From positions 1 through 43,050 of IMG/VR virus record IMGVR_UViG_3300013772_000026: a stretch of 43,050 bases of DNA; one strand, written 5' to 3'. Under the pieces are notes generated by a model. The model saw nothing but the letters and a program-made list of their open reading frames with translations. It ran no database searches and was not told where the DNA came from. The stretch comes from a virus. The position numbers and the translations under genes were made by a program. Below are positions 14,651 through 41,967 of the stretch, in pieces (position 1 is the first letter of the stretch; each line of letters begins with the position of its first letter).

Positions 14651-15196
14651 TTACACCTTTTTCTTCCGAGTAGTTGTTGATTTGGGTTTATTAAAACTCG
14701 CAACAATATTTGGGAGTTCTTTCATTAAATCCCCTAATTTTTCTGGGGAAGGAAGTTTAGATACTATATTATTTAATACTTGACTAAAAATAGACGCAAC
14801 ACTATTACTTAGCTCCATTTCTTGTTCCATTTCTTGTTCTAGTATTTGAACAAACTCAGAACAATCAGAATTAAGCTGTACGTGTTCAATTATTTTATGT
14901 TCTTTGCAAAAATCATAGAATTCTAATGCTAGTACAGAATCAATATTGCTCTCTACATCTGTCAATCCTTCAAATTCAATATCTGCAAAGTTAGCTAATA
15001 TATATAGGGTTGTAAATAGTTTTTTTAGAGTATAATCTACTTTCATAAAACCAGATTCATCTTTGTTTAAAGATATTAAGATTATATTGTCAATCATATT
15101 TTGTTGAGAGACGAGAGGGACGTAGTTAAATTTAATGAGTGTTGGTAAGTTGGTATTGCCTAATTCGATTTGTTCTTTTAATTCATTGAATTTCAT
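14651..15196 (-). CDS. Tail assembly chaperone-like protein
   Basis: This 181-residue protein starts with ATG after AAAGGAG. It is largely helical and acidic in the middle (QILEQEMEQEMELS) with a basic C-terminal tail (KPKSTTTRKKKV). No enzyme motif or membrane segment is present. Position two genes upstream of the tape measure is where tail assembly chaperones normally lie. I saw no clear slippery heptamer at its 3' end, and the next gene has its own start, so a programmed frameshift pair is not supported here. Function is inferred from context. Confidence 0.55.
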   Translation of the reverse strand: MKFNELKEQIELGNTNLPTLIKFNYVPLVSQQNMIDNIILISLNKDESGFMKVDYTLKKLFTTLYILANFADIEFEGLTDVESNIDSVLALEFYDFCKEHKIIEHVQLNSDCSEFVQILEQEMEQEMELSNSVASIFSQVLNNIVSKLPSPEKLGDLMKELPNIVASFNKPKSTTTRKKKV

Positions 15197-15239: not shown

Positions 15240-15260
15240 TCCCCTATTTGAAAATAGGGG
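15233..15260 (-). terminator. Rho-independent terminator of the membrane-protein moron
   Basis: On the minus strand CCCCTATTT (15260-15252) pairs with AAATAGGGG (15249-15241) around a very short loop, followed by AATTTTTACG. The stem is 8-9 bp with four G-C pairs at its base. It starts 16 nt after the stop codon of the 124-residue gene. Confidence 0.75.
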
Positions 15261-15276
15261 AGGGTGGTTACTTTGA

Positions 15277-15651
15277 TTATCTAGCGTTAAGCAATCTGCC
15301 AATTTCTTTTTCGCTATCATCTTGATTCATTGAGCAAATCTCATCTAAATGCTTTTCTGTAGTATTTAGATATTCCGCAATTTCTCCATAAGATACTTTT
15401 AATTTATTATAGGTGTCTATATCAGTATCCTTATATAACACCATTTGAGAACGTATAATAACCAAATCTATAGATAAATCAAAGTTGCTCTTTAAAGAAT
15501 TTTTCCAATTCTTTGCAGAATTTAACGCATGTGATTTATTTGAATTAGATTGTTCAACTGCAACTTTTTGAGAATGATTATAGTATAAATATCCACCAGA
15601 TGATATTATAATCAAGGATATGATAATAGCTAGTATTTTATTTCTTTTCAT
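15277..15651 (-). CDS. Membrane-anchored small protein (moron)
   Basis: This 124-residue protein has a basic start (MKRNK), one hydrophobic segment at about residues 5-24 (ILAIIISLIIISSGGYLYY) and a soluble, charged, helical remainder. There is no lipobox Cys. The topology should be N-in with the bulk outside the membrane. It is the only gene here with both a consensus promoter (TTGCAT-18-TATAAT, 15716-15687) and a strong terminator (15260-15233) of its own. That is the pattern of a moron that can be expressed from a prophage. Superinfection exclusion or host modification is possible but unproven. Its ribosome site is part of a perfect inverted repeat. Confidence 0.75.
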   Translation of the reverse strand: MKRNKILAIIISLIIISSGGYLYYNHSQKVAVEQSNSNKSHALNSAKNWKNSLKSNFDLSIDLVIIRSQMVLYKDTDIDTYNKLKVSYGEIAEYLNTTEKHLDEICSMNQDDSEKEIGRLLNAR

Positions 15652-15718
15652 GTTGCATACCTCCTATAATTTTATTTGTTTACTATATTATATTCTAAAA
15701 CATAGGAGGTATGCAACA
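15651..15718 (-). promoter_or_regulatory. 17-bp inverted repeat masking the moron start, with internal promoter
   Basis: TGTTGCATACCTCCTAT (15651-15667) and ATAGGAGGTATGCAACA (15702-15718) are perfect reverse complements, 34 bp apart. In minus-strand RNA the 3' arm contains the gene's AGGAGG and touches its ATG. The 5' arm is an anti-Shine-Dalgarno. A promoter reads TTGCAT (15716-15711), 18 nt, TATAAT (15692-15687), with predicted start near 15680. Transcripts from it lack the 5' arm and are free to be translated, while read-through transcripts contain both arms and should hide the ribosome site. Confidence 0.7.
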
Positions 15719-15741
15719 AATAATTGAAATTATGTTAAGAT

Positions 15742-17112
15742 TTATAATGATTGTGGTCCCAAAACAGGTTCACCCATTATAACTTCATTAATTGATATAC
15801 AACTCATTAAATAACCCTCTAATACTTTATCAATATTTTCAAAGTCCCAATACCAAATTTGTAATAAAAATATATTATTATTTATAGCATATTCTTTTTT
15901 TCTTCTGTCATGTTCTTGTTGGGTTATGAATTGTTCTTTGGTCTGATTTCTAGCCGTTCCGTCATGGTATTCTCCTTGATACTCTATAAGGAGATTATAT
16001 TGTGGTAAATAGAAATCATATGATAAATTACAAGAACCTAAACCTATTAATCCATTAAATTCTTTTTGAGGAACATTATGAATATTATTTAAGTCAAAAT
16101 ACTCTTTACATTTCTTTTCCCCTTTTGACGCACTACAAGCTGGGCAACCAGTTTTATCACCTGCATTTCTATGAAAAATACCAGAGAACCATTCATAGTT
16201 ACATACCTTGCAAATCCAGTGAACATGAAGGTTGCTCCCAGGACAATATTCTTCAGGTGATTTATCGTTCTTATCATAATCCCATTCTTCACAAATAATA
16301 GGGTTTACAACCAGTAGATTGTATTCTTTAGAAGGTAATTTGTGAGAGCAGTAAGGACATTTACTATCCTTATTTCTACTTGCTATAGTAGCGTCCCATT
16401 CATGACCGTTAACACATTTCCACCACGCTTTACTACCGTTACCACAGGTTACATCATATGGAGTCAAATCACCATTCTTAGCTATATGCCATTCTAAAGA
16501 TAATCTAGGATTAAGTGTATCTAGACAATTAGATATACCTACTTGTAAACCATGGCAATATCCGCAACCTCTACCATTATAAATCTCACCCCAACTAGAC
16601 TTAAATATCTCTCCACAACCATCAGCATGACATTTAAATCTAAGTTTATCATCTCTAGATTCATATATATCTGATACTAATTCAAATGGTCTGTTATTTA
16701 ACTTACACCATGTATCTATGTTCTTTATCGTATAAGGATTTCTTTTTTCAAATCTAGATAAAGTTCCAGTTACCATATATCTTAACTTTCCATTATAATA
16801 ATACCCTTCTTGATCCTTGAATATTAATTTCTGTGAAGACCCTTCATATATATCACTGATCAACTCAAATGATTTGTTATTTAATATTATCCATAATTTT
16901 ATATTCTCTATTGTAAAGGGGTTAACTTTATCAAATATCTTTGATGATGGGTTTTTCTTTAATCCTCTATATAATGTTTGAAAACGATACCCTTCTTTAT
17001 CTTTTATTATTAATTTTTGATTACTATTATTATATTCTTTAGTAATTAGTTCAAATCCTATGCTATTAACAAACTCGCTAAGTTCTTTAATATTGGGTAA
17101 TCTCTTTGCCAT
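15742..17112 (-). CDS. Free-standing homing endonuclease, zinc-finger plus Vsr-like nuclease
   Basis: The ATG at 17112 is chosen because GGAGG lies 9 nt upstream; an in-frame TTG at 17121 is too close. The 456 residues contain three N-terminal repeats of about 45 residues, each with N-x-x-F-E-L-[IV]-[ST] followed by KL-x-[IF]-K-x. Cys pairs follow: CGYC near 185, then a DUF4379-like segment (LEWHIAKNGDLTPYDV ... WWKCVNGHEWDATIASRN ... CPYCS) and a second one (WICKVCNYEWFSGIFHRNAG ... CPAC). The C-terminus has YDFYLPQYNLLIEYQGEYHD, the D...E-x-Q-G-x-x-H core of Vsr/EDxHD-type nucleases such as I-Bth0305I. It should cut a specific site and spread its own gene. Confidence 0.8.
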   Translation of the reverse strand: MAKRLPNIKELSEFVNSIGFELITKEYNNSNQKLIIKDKEGYRFQTLYRGLKKNPSSKIFDKVNPFTIENIKLWIILNNKSFELISDIYEGSSQKLIFKDQEGYYYNGKLRYMVTGTLSRFEKRNPYTIKNIDTWCKLNNRPFELVSDIYESRDDKLRFKCHADGCGEIFKSSWGEIYNGRGCGYCHGLQVGISNCLDTLNPRLSLEWHIAKNGDLTPYDVTCGNGSKAWWKCVNGHEWDATIASRNKDSKCPYCSHKLPSKEYNLLVVNPIICEEWDYDKNDKSPEEYCPGSNLHVHWICKVCNYEWFSGIFHRNAGDKTGCPACSASKGEKKCKEYFDLNNIHNVPQKEFNGLIGLGSCNLSYDFYLPQYNLLIEYQGEYHDGTARNQTKEQFITQQEHDRRKKEYAINNNIFLLQIWYWDFENIDKVLEGYLMSCISINEVIMGEPVLGPQSL

Positions 17113-17164
17113 CACTTTCAACCTCCAATTATTTTTACAACCTCCATCTCCGAACTATATTAAA

Positions 17165-17547: not shown

Positions 17548-17659
17548 AAATCCCCCTCATATTCTATTATGTAAGGTTTTCAATCGCTTACCTTACTTCA
17601 TAGTATATGTTGAAATGTATGATGTGTCAATACAAAATGGTAAATATATATTCAAATAA

Positions 17660-17854
17660 TTAATCTAGATAGAAAATATCATCAAAACTTAAATTAAGTA
17701 CAAATGCAATCTTCAGCCCGACTTCAGCACTTGTGTTATATCTATTTTTAACCAAGTTAGACATAGTTTGTCTTGTAATCCCAACTTGTTCAGCAAGCCA
17801 AATTTGCTTTATTCCACGCTCATCTAGGATCTCTCCTAATCTATTCTTAACCAT
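17660..17854 (-). CDS. XRE-family transcriptional repressor (Cro/CI-like)
   Basis: ATG 17854 is preferred because GGAGTG lies 6 nt upstream; an upstream in-frame ATG at 17941 would add 29 unlikely residues that overlap the promoter. The 64 residues are almost entirely one helix-turn-helix: RLGEILDERGIKQIWLAEQV, then GITRQTMSNLVKNRY, then VGLKIAFVLNLSFDDIFYLD. This is the compact Cro/XRE form common in Gram-positive phages. It has its own extended -10 promoter and a repeat that could be its operator. It may be the immunity or accessory-block repressor. Confidence 0.85.
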   Translation of the reverse strand: MVKNRLGEILDERGIKQIWLAEQVGITRQTMSNLVKNRYNTSAEVGLKIAFVLNLSFDDIFYLD

Positions 17855-17875
17855 ACTATCACTCCATTCATATCT

Positions 17876-17903
17876 ATTATACCAGACATTGATATTGATT
17901 GTC
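17876..17903 (-). promoter_or_regulatory. Extended -10 promoter and putative operator of the XRE gene
   Basis: On the minus strand TGGTATAAT (17884-17876) is an extended -10 element about 20 nt before the start codon. The GACAATCAATATCAATGTC segment (17903-17885) covers the -35/spacer region. It has complementary ends (GACA/TGTC) and a tandem ATCAAT repeat, as expected of an autoregulatory operator. No good -35 hexamer is present, which fits an extended -10 promoter. Confidence 0.5.
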
Positions 17904-17979
17904 TTTATATAGTATATCACAAATGGAGTTATAATATGCAATAAATTATATATTTATTATACTTAATATAAAAACTAGC

Positions 17980-18390
17980 TTACTTAATAAATTTAACTCT
18001 CAATAACTCTGCAATCCTTCTAATATAATCCCTAATATCATCCTGTCTATATTCAGATTTAGCAACATCTAAAGTAAAATCATACCAATCATATTCTACA
18101 TCAGTTTCTAAATAACCATTTATTTCAAACATATAAAACATGGTACTTGCTCCAACCCTTTTATTCCCATCAAGAAAACAATGTCCTTTTGTAAAGAAAT
18201 ATAATAGCATTGCTGATTTATCATACACAGATGGATATTCATCATGTCCAAAATATCCATATTGCTGTGCTAATACGCCTTCTACTTTATTCTCTGTATC
18301 AAGATTATAATCTGGATCTCCACCATTATGTTCAATATTAAATTTGTGAATTGATTTAATATCTTCAGCAAACACATATTTAATATCCAT
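17980..18390 (-). CDS. doc: Doc-family toxin (Fic fold)
   Basis: This 136-residue protein has the Fic/Doc core GHCFLDGNKRVGAS with H70, D74, N76, K77 and R78 in the order H-x-F-x-D-G-N-K-R. It lacks the extra residues of AMP-transferring Fic proteins. Known Doc toxins phosphorylate EF-Tu and block translation. Its start codon follows the stop codon of the preceding gene directly (TAA-ATG), so the two are translationally coupled as a toxin-antitoxin pair. In a phage this usually serves as a plasmid- or prophage-maintenance or anti-phage module. Toxicity itself is not shown by sequence. Confidence 0.88.
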   Translation of the reverse strand: MDIKYVFAEDIKSIHKFNIEHNGGDPDYNLDTENKVEGVLAQQYGYFGHDEYPSVYDKSAMLLYFFTKGHCFLDGNKRVGASTMFYMFEINGYLETDVEYDWYDFTLDVAKSEYRQDDIRDYIRRIAELLRVKFIK

Positions 18391-18630
18391 TTATTCAGCC
18401 AACCTTTTTAGTAATTTTGAATGTCTTTTTAAAAGATTTTGAATAATTTTATCATTTGCTTCTCTATCTAATATGTGAGGGGTGGAATATGTTACTACAT
18501 CTTTCTTCTCAAGAGTATTAATCACTTTGACACCTCCTGTATTAATTTTTGCTTTAATAAGTTTGACTCTGACTCTTTTATTGAGTTTTGCGTTTTGATT
18601 TCTGACGGTTGTTTTTCTAATTCTTGGCAT
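18391..18630 (-). CDS. Putative antitoxin of the Doc pair
   Basis: ATG 18630 is chosen: AAGGGGTG lies 6 nt upstream, while the in-frame GTG at 18639 is inside that site. The 79-residue product has a very basic N-terminal half (MPRIRKTTVRNQNAKLNKRV) that could bind DNA and a C-terminal helix (ILDREANDKIIQNLLKRHSK) that could fill the toxin cleft, as Phd does. It does not match the classical Phd N-terminus. Assignment rests on its place directly before doc, its size and its autoregulation-like promoter. An unrelated antitoxin type is possible. Confidence 0.6.
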   Translation of the reverse strand: MPRIRKTTVRNQNAKLNKRVRVKLIKAKINTGGVKVINTLEKKDVVTYSTPHILDREANDKIIQNLLKRHSKLLKRLAE

Positions 18631-18632
18631 AG

Positions 18633-18679
18633 TAATCACCCCTTAATTACATTATATAATATTGAGGTGATTAAGTCAA
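18633..18679 (-). promoter_or_regulatory. Consensus promoter with overlapping inverted-repeat operator for the toxin-antitoxin operon
   Basis: On the minus strand TTGACT (18679-18674), a 17-nt spacer and TATAAT (18656-18651) form a near-perfect housekeeping promoter. An inverted repeat overlaps it: GGTGATTA (18666-18673) and TAATCACC (18633-18640), in minus orientation TAATCACC within the spacer and GGTGATTA at the ribosome site. A dimeric repressor bound here would block the promoter, as in other autoregulated toxin-antitoxin operons. The same repeat could also fold in a read-through RNA to cover GGGGTG. Confidence 0.75.
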
Positions 18680-24734: not shown

Positions 24735-25280
24735 TTAATAAGTGTTTGAAGAATCAAATTTTACGCCAAGAAGATTTTCAAGAAATCTTTGCTTAGTTAT
24801 AGAGTCAAATTCTCCATTTTCAATTTTTATTTTTGCCATTTCAGCAAGTAAATCTTTAGTTCCCTTTGGTTGTTTAGAAACTATTTCTTGCATTTTAGAT
24901 TCAGATGATTTGAAGAATACATCAATATTATCAGGTTTAATTAAATATTTATATAACTCAGTTAACCTCAAATGATTTACGACATCCTCATCATCAATTA
25001 CCAGCCATCCCTCTAGAAGAAGTTTGGATTGATTAGATTTCATTGTTACTAAGTCTGAAACTTGCATTACATCCCTAGCACCATATCCACCCTCAATCAT
25101 CCATTCCCCAGTTGTCCTAGAATTTACGAATGATAATATATGTGTAGTGTTATTTACTACATCAACATAATCATCTTTATCCACTTTTTTAGGAACAACT
25201 TTCTTAATGGGAGGTTCAGAGACTTTTACTTCTTTAACAATAATGTCTTCTTTGGGCATTACTTTTTTTGCTCTTGGCAT
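24735..25280 (-). CDS. Structural protein after the capsid gene, function unknown
   Basis: This 181-residue protein starts with ATG after AAAAGGAGAG. It begins with a Lys/Pro/Val-rich extended tail (MPRAKKVMPKEDIIVKEVKV, then PPIKKVVPKKVDKDD). A compact domain follows with W-x-x-E-G-G-Y-G-A-R-D and LLEGWLVIDDEDVVNHLRL. A C-terminal helical end contains KGTKDLLAEMAKIKIENGEF. It is probably a head or neck component. The family is not recognised. Confidence 0.6.
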   Translation of the reverse strand: MPRAKKVMPKEDIIVKEVKVSEPPIKKVVPKKVDKDDYVDVVNNTTHILSFVNSRTTGEWMIEGGYGARDVMQVSDLVTMKSNQSKLLLEGWLVIDDEDVVNHLRLTELYKYLIKPDNIDVFFKSSESKMQEIVSKQPKGTKDLLAEMAKIKIENGEFDSITKQRFLENLLGVKFDSSNTY

Positions 25281-25305: not shown

Positions 25306-25350
25306 TAATATATTATGAGGGTTATTATTTTCACCCTCATAATATATTAT
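25306..25350 (-). terminator. Long perfect hairpin behind the major capsid gene
   Basis: TAATATATTATGAGGG (25306-25321) and CCCTCATAATATATTA (25334-25349) are perfect 16-bp arms, plus one more inner pair, with a loop of about 10 nt. It begins 8 nt downstream of the capsid stop codon and is not followed by a U-run in minus RNA. It more likely stabilises the capsid mRNA 3' end or marks a processing site than fully terminates. Confidence 0.65.
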
Positions 25351-25357
25351 ATTTATA

Positions 25358-26362
25358 TTAAGACAATTTCATGAAGCCGTATTTTGATGCACTAAGGATC
25401 GCAATCCCATATTGCTTACCAAAACCTTTTTCAATAGACATATCAGCATTTTGGTCAAAAGCGTTATCTGTCATAATAGCTTCTCCCTCAAATACCAATT
25501 TGACAATTTTCTCAGAATTTTGTGGAACAATAAGGATAAAGGAATCGTCAATGACGAAATTATCAGTACCAGGAACATGAGCGTTTGTGAGTTCTACTAA
25601 TGGTGTTCCTTGAAGATTACCCAAGTAACCTTGTGAATTTACTACTCCCAACATTTCTTGGTTCATAAGACCAGGATATGCAGTAAAACCAGCGGTTGGA
25701 GTTACTTTTGCTAATGCTAATTTGGTTCCGAAGCATACCACATCTGGGGTATTAGCAGCAGCTTGAACATGCGCTACCATTGTGTTGAATGCAGTAAGAG
25801 AGAACGTTCCAGTTACTCCGTATGTAGCACTCAATGTACTGTAAGAACTATAAATACCAGCATAAATATCACTCTTGATTTGTAATGCAAACGAAGTAGC
25901 AATACGATTTACCATAAGAGGCCAGTCGATTCTGCCACTGGCAAAACGAATGAATTCCTCATAGATTTTCACGAATCTCATTTTCGTAGGAACAGTCAAC
26001 GAACCTCTGTCTAAACGTTGTGCTCTGATGTTCGTAGTACCATTAGCAATTGTAGCAACATTAAACAAGCTAATATCCGATACTTCAAAAACTGCTTGAT
26101 CTCCCCACGACATATTGCGTGTTTCGACAAATTGGTCAAATTGTCCTTCTAAAGTACGTGGAATAATTTGGTCAATTGTTTCAGTAATAAGATTAAATAC
26201 TGCATAACGAGTTACAGGGTTTTGCATTGATTTATAATCTACTTTACCGCCACACATTTCAACGATAGATTTTCTGAGTGCTCCATTTGCGTCCTCCGCA
26301 GAAAACTTGTCTGTTTTACCATAATAAATATCTAAACCTAATTGAACTAGTTCATTCATCAT
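25358..26362 (-). CDS. Major capsid protein (HK97 type)
   Basis: This 334-residue protein starts with ATG behind AAGAGGAATTA. Features of the HK97 fold are an N-terminal arm, a spine helix region (MVNRIATSFALQIKSDIYAG), a strand-rich P domain (KMRFVKIYEEFIRFASGRID) and an A-domain end with FVIDDSFILIVPQNSEKIVK, then EGEAIMTDNAFDQNADMSIE and FGKQYGIAILSASKYGFMKL. The gene follows the protease/scaffold and decoration genes, as usual. A very stable hairpin directly downstream fits the need for a large amount of product. Confidence 0.9.
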   Translation of the reverse strand: MMNELVQLGLDIYYGKTDKFSAEDANGALRKSIVEMCGGKVDYKSMQNPVTRYAVFNLITETIDQIIPRTLEGQFDQFVETRNMSWGDQAVFEVSDISLFNVATIANGTTNIRAQRLDRGSLTVPTKMRFVKIYEEFIRFASGRIDWPLMVNRIATSFALQIKSDIYAGIYSSYSTLSATYGVTGTFSLTAFNTMVAHVQAAANTPDVVCFGTKLALAKVTPTAGFTAYPGLMNQEMLGVVNSQGYLGNLQGTPLVELTNAHVPGTDNFVIDDSFILIVPQNSEKIVKLVFEGEAIMTDNAFDQNADMSIEKGFGKQYGIAILSASKYGFMKLS

Positions 26363-36525: not shown

Positions 36526-36599
36526 TGGAGCCGAAACACAGAATCAAACTGTGAATCTCTGATTACAAAACAGAAGTTTTATCATTAAACTATTTCGGC
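36526..36599 (-). tRNA. tRNA-Thr (TGT) with encoded CCA
   Basis: The acceptor GCCGAAA pairs fully with TTTCGGC; the D-stem is GTTT/AAAC, the T-stem CACAG/CTGTG. The anticodon loop reads TTTGTAA with anticodon TGT (ACA codons). The bottom anticodon-stem pair is U-U. CCA is encoded after discriminator T. The two neighbouring tRNAs are 3 nt apart. Confidence 0.9.
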
Positions 36600-36602
36600 A
36601 TT

Positions 36603-36678
36603 TGGCTGCGAGAGCAAGGTTCGAACTTGCGACATTCTGATTAACAGTCAGACGCTCTACCAACTGAGCTATCACGCA
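36603..36678 (-). tRNA. tRNA-Asn (GTT) with encoded CCA
   Basis: The structure is standard: D-stem GCTC/GAGC, anticodon loop CTGTTAA with anticodon GTT, T-arm GCAAG-TTCGAAC-CTTGC, discriminator G and encoded CCA. The acceptor stem has one U-U mismatch (TGCGTGA with TCTCGCA). It is upstream of tRNA-Thr, and the two are probably one transcript. Confidence 0.95.
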
Positions 36679-39268: not shown

Positions 39269-39345
39269 CCGTTGCGGGAGTAAGAGTGTAGGATTTATAG
39301 CAATACACAATAATCTCAAACCCTTACCACAGGCGGGCTACAGCG
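39269..39345 (-). ncRNA. Structured element at the 3' end of the RNA polymerase gene
   Basis: In minus RNA the end of the polymerase gene (CGCTGTAGCCC, TGTGG, TAAGGGT; about 39345-39315) can pair with CACTCTTACTCCCGCAACGG (39288-39269). The pairs are TGTGG/CCGCA and TAAGGGT/ACTCTTA with small bulges. A similar sequence order (CGCTGTATCCCTTGTGGGAG, then TAAGG) lies upstream of the polymerase block at about 42964-42940. It may be a control or processing element. No known RNA family was recognised. Confidence 0.4.
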
Positions 39346-41967
39346 TTTCTCTAATAGTCGAGAATTATATCTCATTCGTTGATATTCCCTATCCTGTTGC
39401 TTTTGGAGCGTCTTTAAACAACCCTCACAATACTTTTTTCTATTGCTTATTTGTTCTATTATGTCTCCACAAACCTCACAATAAATTTTACTAGTCTCTA
39501 CGTTTTTTCTTAAATTCTCAACAATGACATTCCCAAAGCATTCCCATAATGTAGTTTTAAAATTTGACTTTTTAAATTCATATAGATATTTAACCAATAC
39601 GTCAGTTACATAATATATGTCTTCATTAACTTCTAATATGCTTTTTACAATTTCTTGATAAAGATAAGTTACGTTGCTTTGTTCATCATCTTCATATGTA
39701 GAGTTCATCATGAAATGCTTCTTCAAGTCCATCTCTTTATACTTTTTAATAACTTCTTCATCTAGCTTTATTCTTTTGTTCTTTAACATCATCTTATAAT
39801 CAAAATTTCCTAAATTCGCTGCAACAAAACTTATCTTAGTATTAGGTATTATTTTCTCCAATCTATTTACTATACTATTATTAACTTCCTCAACTTTATC
39901 CTTTTCTTTATCCTTAGCGTAGATAAAAAAGTGTGGAGTTTTTAACTTTGTATAATCAGTAATCATATTCTTCTTAGATTTTGGTCTTACTGGTTTATAC
40001 AATGTCTTAGCATAATCAATTGTAAAATTATTTTCCATACAAAGTAATTTAACTACTTCAAGGTTTACATTTCCACTATTCCATATCTTTGTAATGTTAT
40101 TACTTACCGTTCCTATGTTCCCTCCTGTATATGCAGTCTTTAGTCCATTATAGATACTATTATTAGTGATAATTTCAGCAGGAGCTTTTCTCATGTTATA
40201 GTATAAGGGAACTATTCCTTCCATATTACGCTCCGCTATAGAAATTAGAGTAGGGCAAGCAACTACCAAAGACTTATCTCCATCAACATCAAATTGTAGG
40301 ATCTTAGATATTAAATCGTGACAACTAGTATATACCCCATTAGTAATAAACCATTTTTTCTTATCATCATCAATAATATTATTTCTGATTGCGTGTTCCC
40401 TGTAAAGATGTGGGCTGCGTAGGCAATCCAGTTTAGGAGAATTAGGATATAGGTTACAATATACATCTCCATCATTGAGCAATCCTTTAGGGTCTGTATC
40501 TCCAAGAATCAAATACTCACAGAAAGCGTAGATGTCAGGAATAATAAAAGTATATACTCCATTTATGTCTAACTTAGCCGATCTACCTTCTTTAACCATA
40601 CTTTTTTTAACTTGTTTCAATATTTCCTTACTATATGTATCATTCAACAACTCAGGATAAATCTCCAATGCTTGTTGAATATTATTCTTATTCTTGTTAG
40701 ACTTCTTTACTCCTAATACTTTCAGCATGGTTTTTCTATCTCTACCAATGTTCAAGATATTATGTTTTGTTGTTTTTGCAATAGTTTCTAATTCTTTATT
40801 ATCCATATCAGTTAATGTCTGAAGCATTTGATAGTTTATTTTTGCATCACTGAAATCTTCTTCCTCTTCATTACACTTTCCAGCTTGGCACTTATATTTT
40901 ATGTAATTATCTTGATACATTTCCCACCCTGACTTGTTTGTATCAGAATTATTCTGGAAATACTTATACATCTTGAACTGGCTACGAGTGAAAATTACTT
41001 GTATTCCTTCTTCTAAAATATTATGGCTCTTCCCATAGATATCTACTACATTTCCATATATCTTTCCTTCACCGTTATTGTTTGCTTCTATAATAAACTT
41101 ATTAAACGCAAATGGAACTAGTAAGCCTTTGATCCAAGGTAATCTCACCATCATGCTTTTATCGCTTAAATTCGGTAGCATCATGCCACAACCATCAGTA
41201 TGAGAAATAGGGATCTTCATTTTTTGTCTGATAATATCATATGTTTCATCATCTATAAAATCTACTATTCCTTCAACATCAGTTTCCATATCTTCTACAA
41301 CTATAGATTTCATAATATTGAATCCGTCCCAATTATCAGTCGCAGAATTTGCAAGTGCTAGGTATGCAAGGTACTTATTAATATTTACCCCACCTAGTAG
41401 ATTAATATCTTCTATAGTTAAGCCACACATTAATGTATTCTTATGTTTTAGTAAAATACTTTCCTTAATAAAAACTGTTTTCTTTGTTCTTATCTGACCA
41501 GCACTGGCAGTCAAGCAAACATATTTTTCATCACCTGACATAAAGTTGTCCAGAATAATATCTTCTATCACATCAAAGAAATATGTTTGAACAATTATAA
41601 TATCTGTAGACAATGTATTTTCTTCAATGTTAATTGTCCTTGTTAGAACTGAATCAAATACAGATATTATATTACGTTTGTTTAAAGACTCTTCTCTAAG
41701 ACTTCTAATTCCACTATGTAAATTAAACTCTTTATATAGCATTTTCTTATAGATTTTAAGTCTTTTATTGGTATTATGGAGGAATTTTACTAACATTTCT
41801 CTATTTATTTCACTTATTTTTCCCTTGTCTATTTTCTTTTGTAACTTATTTCTGAACATATAATTCTTATTCAAACGATTATGTATGACCATTTCATTGC
41901 TATTATAAAAGCTACTAGTATCTACACTATAAATATGAATTTGTTTGTTCAGACTAATAGTAATCAA
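39316..41967 (-). CDS. YonO-like single-chain DNA-directed RNA polymerase with zinc knuckle
   Basis: This 883-residue protein has the double-psi barrel catalytic motif DxDGD: D560-V-D562-G-D564 in ISKILQFDVDGDKSLVV. This is the metal-binding core of the YonO/QDE-1-type polymerases related to cellular RNA polymerase. Upstream is a basic barrel region with IPDIYAFCEYLILGDTDPKG and NGVYTSCHDL. YonO of SPbeta is known to transcribe DNA without other subunits. The C-terminus has C830, C833, C847 and C850 in CEVCG ... CEGC, a zinc knuckle. The start is uncertain: the TTG at 41967 lies only 1 nt after AAAGGAG, so an ATT/CTG codon slightly downstream or ATG 41892 are alternatives. It probably transcribes late genes. 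Confidence 0.88.
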   Translation of the reverse strand: MITISLNKQIHIYSVDTSSFYNSNEMVIHNRLNKNYMFRNKLQKKIDKGKISEINREMLVKFLHNTNKRLKIYKKMLYKEFNLHSGIRSLREESLNKRNIISVFDSVLTRTINIEENTLSTDIIIVQTYFFDVIEDIILDNFMSGDEKYVCLTASAGQIRTKKTVFIKESILLKHKNTLMCGLTIEDINLLGGVNINKYLAYLALANSATDNWDGFNIMKSIVVEDMETDVEGIVDFIDDETYDIIRQKMKIPISHTDGCGMMLPNLSDKSMMVRLPWIKGLLVPFAFNKFIIEANNNGEGKIYGNVVDIYGKSHNILEEGIQVIFTRSQFKMYKYFQNNSDTNKSGWEMYQDNYIKYKCQAGKCNEEEEDFSDAKINYQMLQTLTDMDNKELETIAKTTKHNILNIGRDRKTMLKVLGVKKSNKNKNNIQQALEIYPELLNDTYSKEILKQVKKSMVKEGRSAKLDINGVYTFIIPDIYAFCEYLILGDTDPKGLLNDGDVYCNLYPNSPKLDCLRSPHLYREHAIRNNIIDDDKKKWFITNGVYTSCHDLISKILQFDVDGDKSLVVACPTLISIAERNMEGIVPLYYNMRKAPAEIITNNSIYNGLKTAYTGGNIGTVSNNITKIWNSGNVNLEVVKLLCMENNFTIDYAKTLYKPVRPKSKKNMITDYTKLKTPHFFIYAKDKEKDKVEEVNNSIVNRLEKIIPNTKISFVAANLGNFDYKMMLKNKRIKLDEEVIKKYKEMDLKKHFMMNSTYEDDEQSNVTYLYQEIVKSILEVNEDIYYVTDVLVKYLYEFKKSNFKTTLWECFGNVIVENLRKNVETSKIYCEVCGDIIEQISNRKKYCEGCLKTLQKQQDREYQRMRYNSRLLEKRCSPPVVRV

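Follow-up and report, generated by a model that had tools for sequence, protein, structure and literature searches.

In the virus record analyzed here, a 43-kb stretch of 43,050 nucleotides that we call the window, a cargo ('moron') gene is, with a probability of roughly 0.7, isolated from its surrounding operon by a cis-acting translational lock, as judged from sequence. RNA starting upstream of ~15706 would carry an anti-SD arm and fold into a 17-bp stem that hides the SD of the cargo gene; RNA from the gene's own promoter could not form this stem, the -35 being built into the upstream arm. The cargo would be translated mainly from this host-type (sigma-A-like) promoter and would stay nearly silent on transcripts coming from the upstream endonuclease gene or from the late operon; the late-operon RNA would probably be a product of the phage's YonO-type RNA polymerase. 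Promoter and lock appear to make up a portable 5' cassette, with a varying membrane-protein or lipoprotein gene behind it in one and the same slot of related phages. Mistimed expression is something that a cargo gene within a phage late operon has to avoid, and related phages use one slot in two arrangements: the cargo is either encoded opposite the operon, or shares its strand and follows the conserved lock.

Predicted promoter and inverted repeat ahead of the cargo gene

The structural genes of the window lie on the minus strand, and its relatives are SPbeta-type. The features of the locus are:

14651-15196, minus strand: tail-region gene, the downstream marker of the slot
15240-15261, minus strand: strong terminator-like hairpin after the cargo gene
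15277-15651, minus strand: cargo (moron) gene, 124 aa, one N-terminal membrane segment, without known family
15651-15667, minus strand: downstream arm, ATAGGAGGTATGCAACA, which includes the SD AGGAGG and the A of the start codon
15687-15692, minus strand: predicted -10, TATAAT, a perfect match, invariant in 6/6 members, spacer 18 nt
15702-15718, minus strand: upstream (anti-SD) arm, TGTTGCATACCTCCTAT, which holds CCTCCT and the -35 and is kept in relatives
15711-15716, minus strand: predicted -35, TTGCAT, 3/6 consensus positions; TTG(C/T)AT in 6/6 members
15714-15729, minus strand: conserved upstream element TTTCAATTATTTGTTG, before and overlapping the -35, a candidate operator or promoter element
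15742-17121, minus strand: HNH/homing-endonuclease-like gene (DUF4379), upstream

The two arms form a perfect 17-bp inverted repeat on the minus strand (15718-15702 / 15667-15651) with a loop of 34 nt. The SD (15665-15660) precedes the ATG (15651-15649) by 8 nt; a second ATG, at 15658-15656 within the downstream arm, is 1 nt from the SD and in another frame. In 100 Markov sequences matching the window in composition and size, the longest arm found within 100 nt was 10-15 bp. The hairpin RNA fold reached -28 kcal/mol (z = -7.25), a value matched by 0 of 200 shuffles, and on the long RNA the SD and start region of the cargo gene are paired in a stable predicted stem. Reading the stem as an intrinsic terminator was rejected: ATGAAAAG follows it, there is no T run, and it is missing from the terminator list. 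Between the endonuclease-like gene and the cargo gene, the minus strand showed no terminator. A second perfect 17-bp inverted repeat, with a 10-nt loop and no T run, lies at 25306-25349, just after a capsid-region gene (25358-26362) and before the gene at 24735-25280. An Rfam scan of the window returned tRNAs only; two adjacent tRNA genes (36529-36678, minus strand) are located between the structural genes and a PhoH-like gene.

TATAAT lies in the hairpin loop and the -35 within the upstream arm; promoter and SD lock, as both are predicted, share the same bases. Six phage sequences retain the arrangement TTG(C/T)AT, 17-18 nt, TATAAT, which occurs once in the window against 0.03 occurrences expected; a generic scan missed this promoter because its -35 matches the consensus at only three of six positions. 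The -35 TTG begins 25 nt after the stop of the endonuclease-like gene. Transcription would start near 15680 and, since the -35 is in the upstream arm, own-promoter transcripts would lack that arm. The original prediction had placed the -35 inside this arm, with which the predicted TTGCAT at 15716-15711 agrees, retained as TTG(C/T)AT in six sequences, albeit as a hexamer of only 3/6 consensus. It had also claimed that the repeat pairs both AGGAGG and the ATG: the perfect 17-bp stem does contain the SD, but takes in only the A of the real ATG.

The module in related phages

Besides the window, at least five divergent phage sequences carry the promoter/hairpin module; in them, an endonuclease-like gene is followed by the module and then by the same tail-region gene, and the cargo behind the module differs, being other membrane proteins or lipoproteins. 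Similarity to the window module was 78% identity (E 7e-12) in L129, which lies on a 153-kb contig, and 83% (E 6e-18) in L040; in both, the module comes after a large endonuclease-like gene and before different membrane-protein genes. Pattern scans, one of which asked for promoter and SD without requiring an anti-SD, added L154/L151, L036/L039/L044 and L179/L200; in every case where the locus extends to the marker gene, the module is in the slot. The cargo of L036 and L200 is a lipoprotein with an LSGC lipobox. In L154 (2636-3255, minus strand) a two-gene cargo operon with overlapping genes (ATGA) stands behind one lock; its first gene encodes a 68-aa membrane protein and its second a protein homologous to the window cargo (36%, E 7e-18). 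A motif scan with TTGTTGCATACCTCCT returned two real modules only, the remaining matches looking like chance, and searches of phage and plasmid collections with the module DNA gave short weak matches only.

The upstream endonuclease-like genes belong to differing families across the window, L036, L040, L129, L154 and L200, and recombine independently of the cargo, as L036 and L200 share the cargo and not the endonuclease. In L008/L009, L010 and L011 the membrane-protein gene of the slot lies on the opposite strand without a comparable lock, which is a different way of avoiding sense read-through; this gene has its own promoter-like sequence. In L007 the slot is empty.

The window cargo protein recurs unchanged once, in a near-identical contig. 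Searches of genomes and named phages with the cargo protein and with the slot protein gave no match, nor did the slot gene against the phage collection, and no defence families were found among the cargo proteins. The membrane anchors and the lipobox allow no more than a guess at an envelope role, superinfection exclusion for example. Also inserted in the tail region of the window (17660-18639, minus strand) are an Xre-type regulator, a Doc-like toxin and a small antitoxin-resembling gene, accompanied by promoter-like sequences at 17630 and 18679.

Apparently selected pairing, predicted opening costs and rival explanations

Six members keep the hairpin through compensatory change, a count that overstates independence because they share ancestry. 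Two-sided pair changes occur at registers -2 to -7 relative to the SD; at register -4, for instance, the pair is C-G, U-A or A-U, and at -5 it is G-C, A-U or U-A. The number of contiguous pairs varies from about 9 to 17 per member, with the conserved part centred on the SD. In L129 and L154 the SD core is held by G-U pairs. The L200 arm is 3 bases longer than that of the window between the -35 and the anti-SD, and 3 matching bases follow its SD. This G-U tolerance, together with the length compensation, favours RNA pairing over an operator in DNA. Arm duplexes of the slot members were predicted at -15.8 to -32.1 kcal/mol, versus -2.0 to -14.7 kcal/mol for 25 unrelated matches to the pattern (p = 0.0003). 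When only the spacer was shuffled, the native pairing was reached in 0-10 of 2000 trials per member. Swapping arms between members weakened pairing: two of 720 assignments were as stable, the second being a tie produced by the L036/L200 exchange. The promoter within the upstream arm accounts for part of that arm's conservation.

We computed the cost of opening the region from SD to AUG on read-through (long) and own-promoter (short) RNA:

Window: long 23.4, short 4.7 kcal/mol
L200: long 19.8, short 4.7 kcal/mol
L036: long 18.1, short 2.5 kcal/mol
L154: long 15.0, short 7.0 kcal/mol
L129: long 11.6, short 8.4 kcal/mol
L040: long 9.5, short 4.1 kcal/mol

All six members fold, and in each the long RNA is the costlier to open; the locks of L040 and L129 are modest. 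Among 46 genes of the window, the cargo start is the most buried (24.6 kcal/mol; next 15.2, median 5.75). A scan of 5' ends indicated that the window lock would be lost once the RNA begins at ~15706 or downstream, and no opening is predicted from a ribosome that terminates at the upstream stop. From the opening costs and the 5'-end scan, translation is predicted to proceed mainly from the local promoter. The original prediction of a logic like that of T4 gene e is well supported by these values, high on long and lower on short RNA, and by the compensatory changes in six members. A dependence on the 5' end is predicted as well, with a limit at ~15706 rather than 15718. The claim that the cargo is never made from read-through RNA was too strong: the long-RNA cost is high, but zero expression is not borne out, and L040 and L129 would leak more. 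Its presumption that the gene is lysogenic did not gain support, as five larger relatives have no resolvase-type recombinase and a tyrosine recombinase is patchy.

The same arms could instead act on DNA, with a regulator binding both of them (centres 51 bp apart) and controlling the promoter, perhaps by looping. In favour of this, the arms lie on both sides of the promoter and partly within it, conservation continues past the -35 with an element TTTCAA..TTTGTTG, the neighbourhood encodes regulators (one of Xre type at 17660-17941), and SPbeta has a repeated 15-bp MrpR operator (PMC10516654). We nevertheless consider an operator unlikely, since L129 and L154 have G-U in the SD core where Watson-Crick pairs would stand, arm sequence and length co-vary in a manner that suits RNA pairing better than fixed half-sites, and the arm sequence is a single site, absent elsewhere in the window. 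A long, perfectly paired stem between two genes of a polycistronic region would also suit an RNA processing or stability element, such as an RNase III-type site, that separates the endonuclease and cargo messages. Cleavage of the stem would, however, destroy the SD within it, and conservation follows the SD and not a fixed duplex length, which makes this explanation quite improbable.

Could the arms match merely as a by-product, through two divergent ribosome sites or by chance pairing of AT-rich promoter and SD sequence? Such patterns do arise elsewhere from divergent RBS pairs, several of which turned up in a generic SD-hairpin scan. At this locus there is no divergent gene (the plus-strand ATG is separated from its SD by 1 nt and begins a frame of 23 codons within the endonuclease gene), and both the spacer shuffles and the weak pairing of unrelated promoter and SD matches speak against it; we regard such an origin as very improbable. 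Inverted repeats that flank a promoter core also recall a phase switch, in which a recombinase would flip the 34-bp spacer. In 6/6 members and duplicate contigs, however, the -10 faces the cargo and the opposite orientation was not found, the repeats are imperfect in four members, and a 34-bp spacer is very short compared with known invertons, so that an invertible promoter seems scarcely credible.

Possible late read-through and comparison with known systems

The window encodes a candidate enzyme for making long transcripts across the slot:

39316-41967, minus strand: YonO-like single-chain RNA polymerase, 883 aa, ~50% identity to SPbeta YonO, DVDGD motif

Pfam does not annotate this homolog, by which the phage can be assigned to the YonO-type group. 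YonO is the late RNA polymerase of SPbeta (PMC5467207). Late read-through is plausible because the window encodes this relative, and the YonO-like polymerase, as context and not as part of the lock, is its probable source; its transcript would cross the slot and ignore the surrounding terminators. A YonO relative is also encoded by the L036 and L179 phages and was not detected in the L129 phage. A search of PDB sequences did not confirm a YonK homolog at the start of the late operon. We tentatively suggest, with considerable doubt, that the cassette could be host-polymerase-only, whatever membrane-protein cargo occupies the late-operon slot being made from transcripts of host RNA polymerase and silent on the long late transcript of the YonO-type enzyme. 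At its catalytic DxDGD codons, the yonO homolog of L208 (G008:C1:3280-7040) is split by an out-of-frame insertion of ~1.1 kb; the same pattern, which looks intron-type, recurs in G009-G011. An intein was suspected in these relatives and rejected; Rfam intron models gave no match to the ~1.1-kb insertion.

As in SPbeta, the window has a YonO-type enzyme and structural genes downstream on the same strand; unlike there, where the available part of PMC5467207 describes no such lock for YonO late transcription, a lock is predicted here. The closest parallels in logic are T4 e, soc and 49, whose RBS-sequestering hairpins have a promoter inside, the lock of gene e having an effect of about 100-fold (PMC3014915, PMC2988022). 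As with these genes, the SD would be buried on long transcripts, and the transcript of the local promoter, here a predicted one, would lack the 5' arm. T4 guards late genes, which have T4 late promoters, against early RNA, whereas here a predicted host-type promoter is used and a non-late cargo gene is probably guarded against late RNA; unlike in T4, one module precedes unrelated genes. A T4 late-type promoter (TATAAATA) is absent as driver, the promoter being TTG(C/T)AT-17/18-TATAAT, and because of this we describe the lock as working like the T4 type and not as a member of it. I-TevI, I-TevII, I-TevIII, segB and Aeh1 mobE likewise combine a hairpin lock with an internal promoter (PMC2988022) and, as here, are mobile genes inserted in another transcription unit. 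In that group the homing endonuclease itself is locked, whereas here the endonuclease-like gene lies upstream and the membrane-protein cargo is locked.

Insertion elements offer a further comparison. In IS10/Tn10 and IS200, folding reportedly hides the start, and the inserted gene is silent on read-through RNA. Unlike these elements, what we describe here is a cargo cassette occupying a phage slot, with no transposase or element ends seen and a cargo without family match. Protection of transposase genes from outside promoters is attributed to Davis 1985 and Beuzon 1999 in PMC2965389. New here are the Gram-positive-type phage setting, a cassette independent of its cargo and, probably, the late-operon context. 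If the lock works as predicted, cargo genes expressed independently of the late programme could be recognised from sequence by a simple rule, T4 lock logic would extend to YonO-type phages, and a compact natural insulator part would be at hand.

A generic scan for SD hairpins with TATAAT in the loop returned 84 stretches, which we treat as a side observation only, because divergent RBS pairs are mixed among them. Repeats of 13-20 bp that bury an SD, have TATAAT in the loop and sit upstream of a start codon occur in L047/L061, L064, L087, L058, L062/L068, L088, L037 and L066, and may be independent locks of the same kind.
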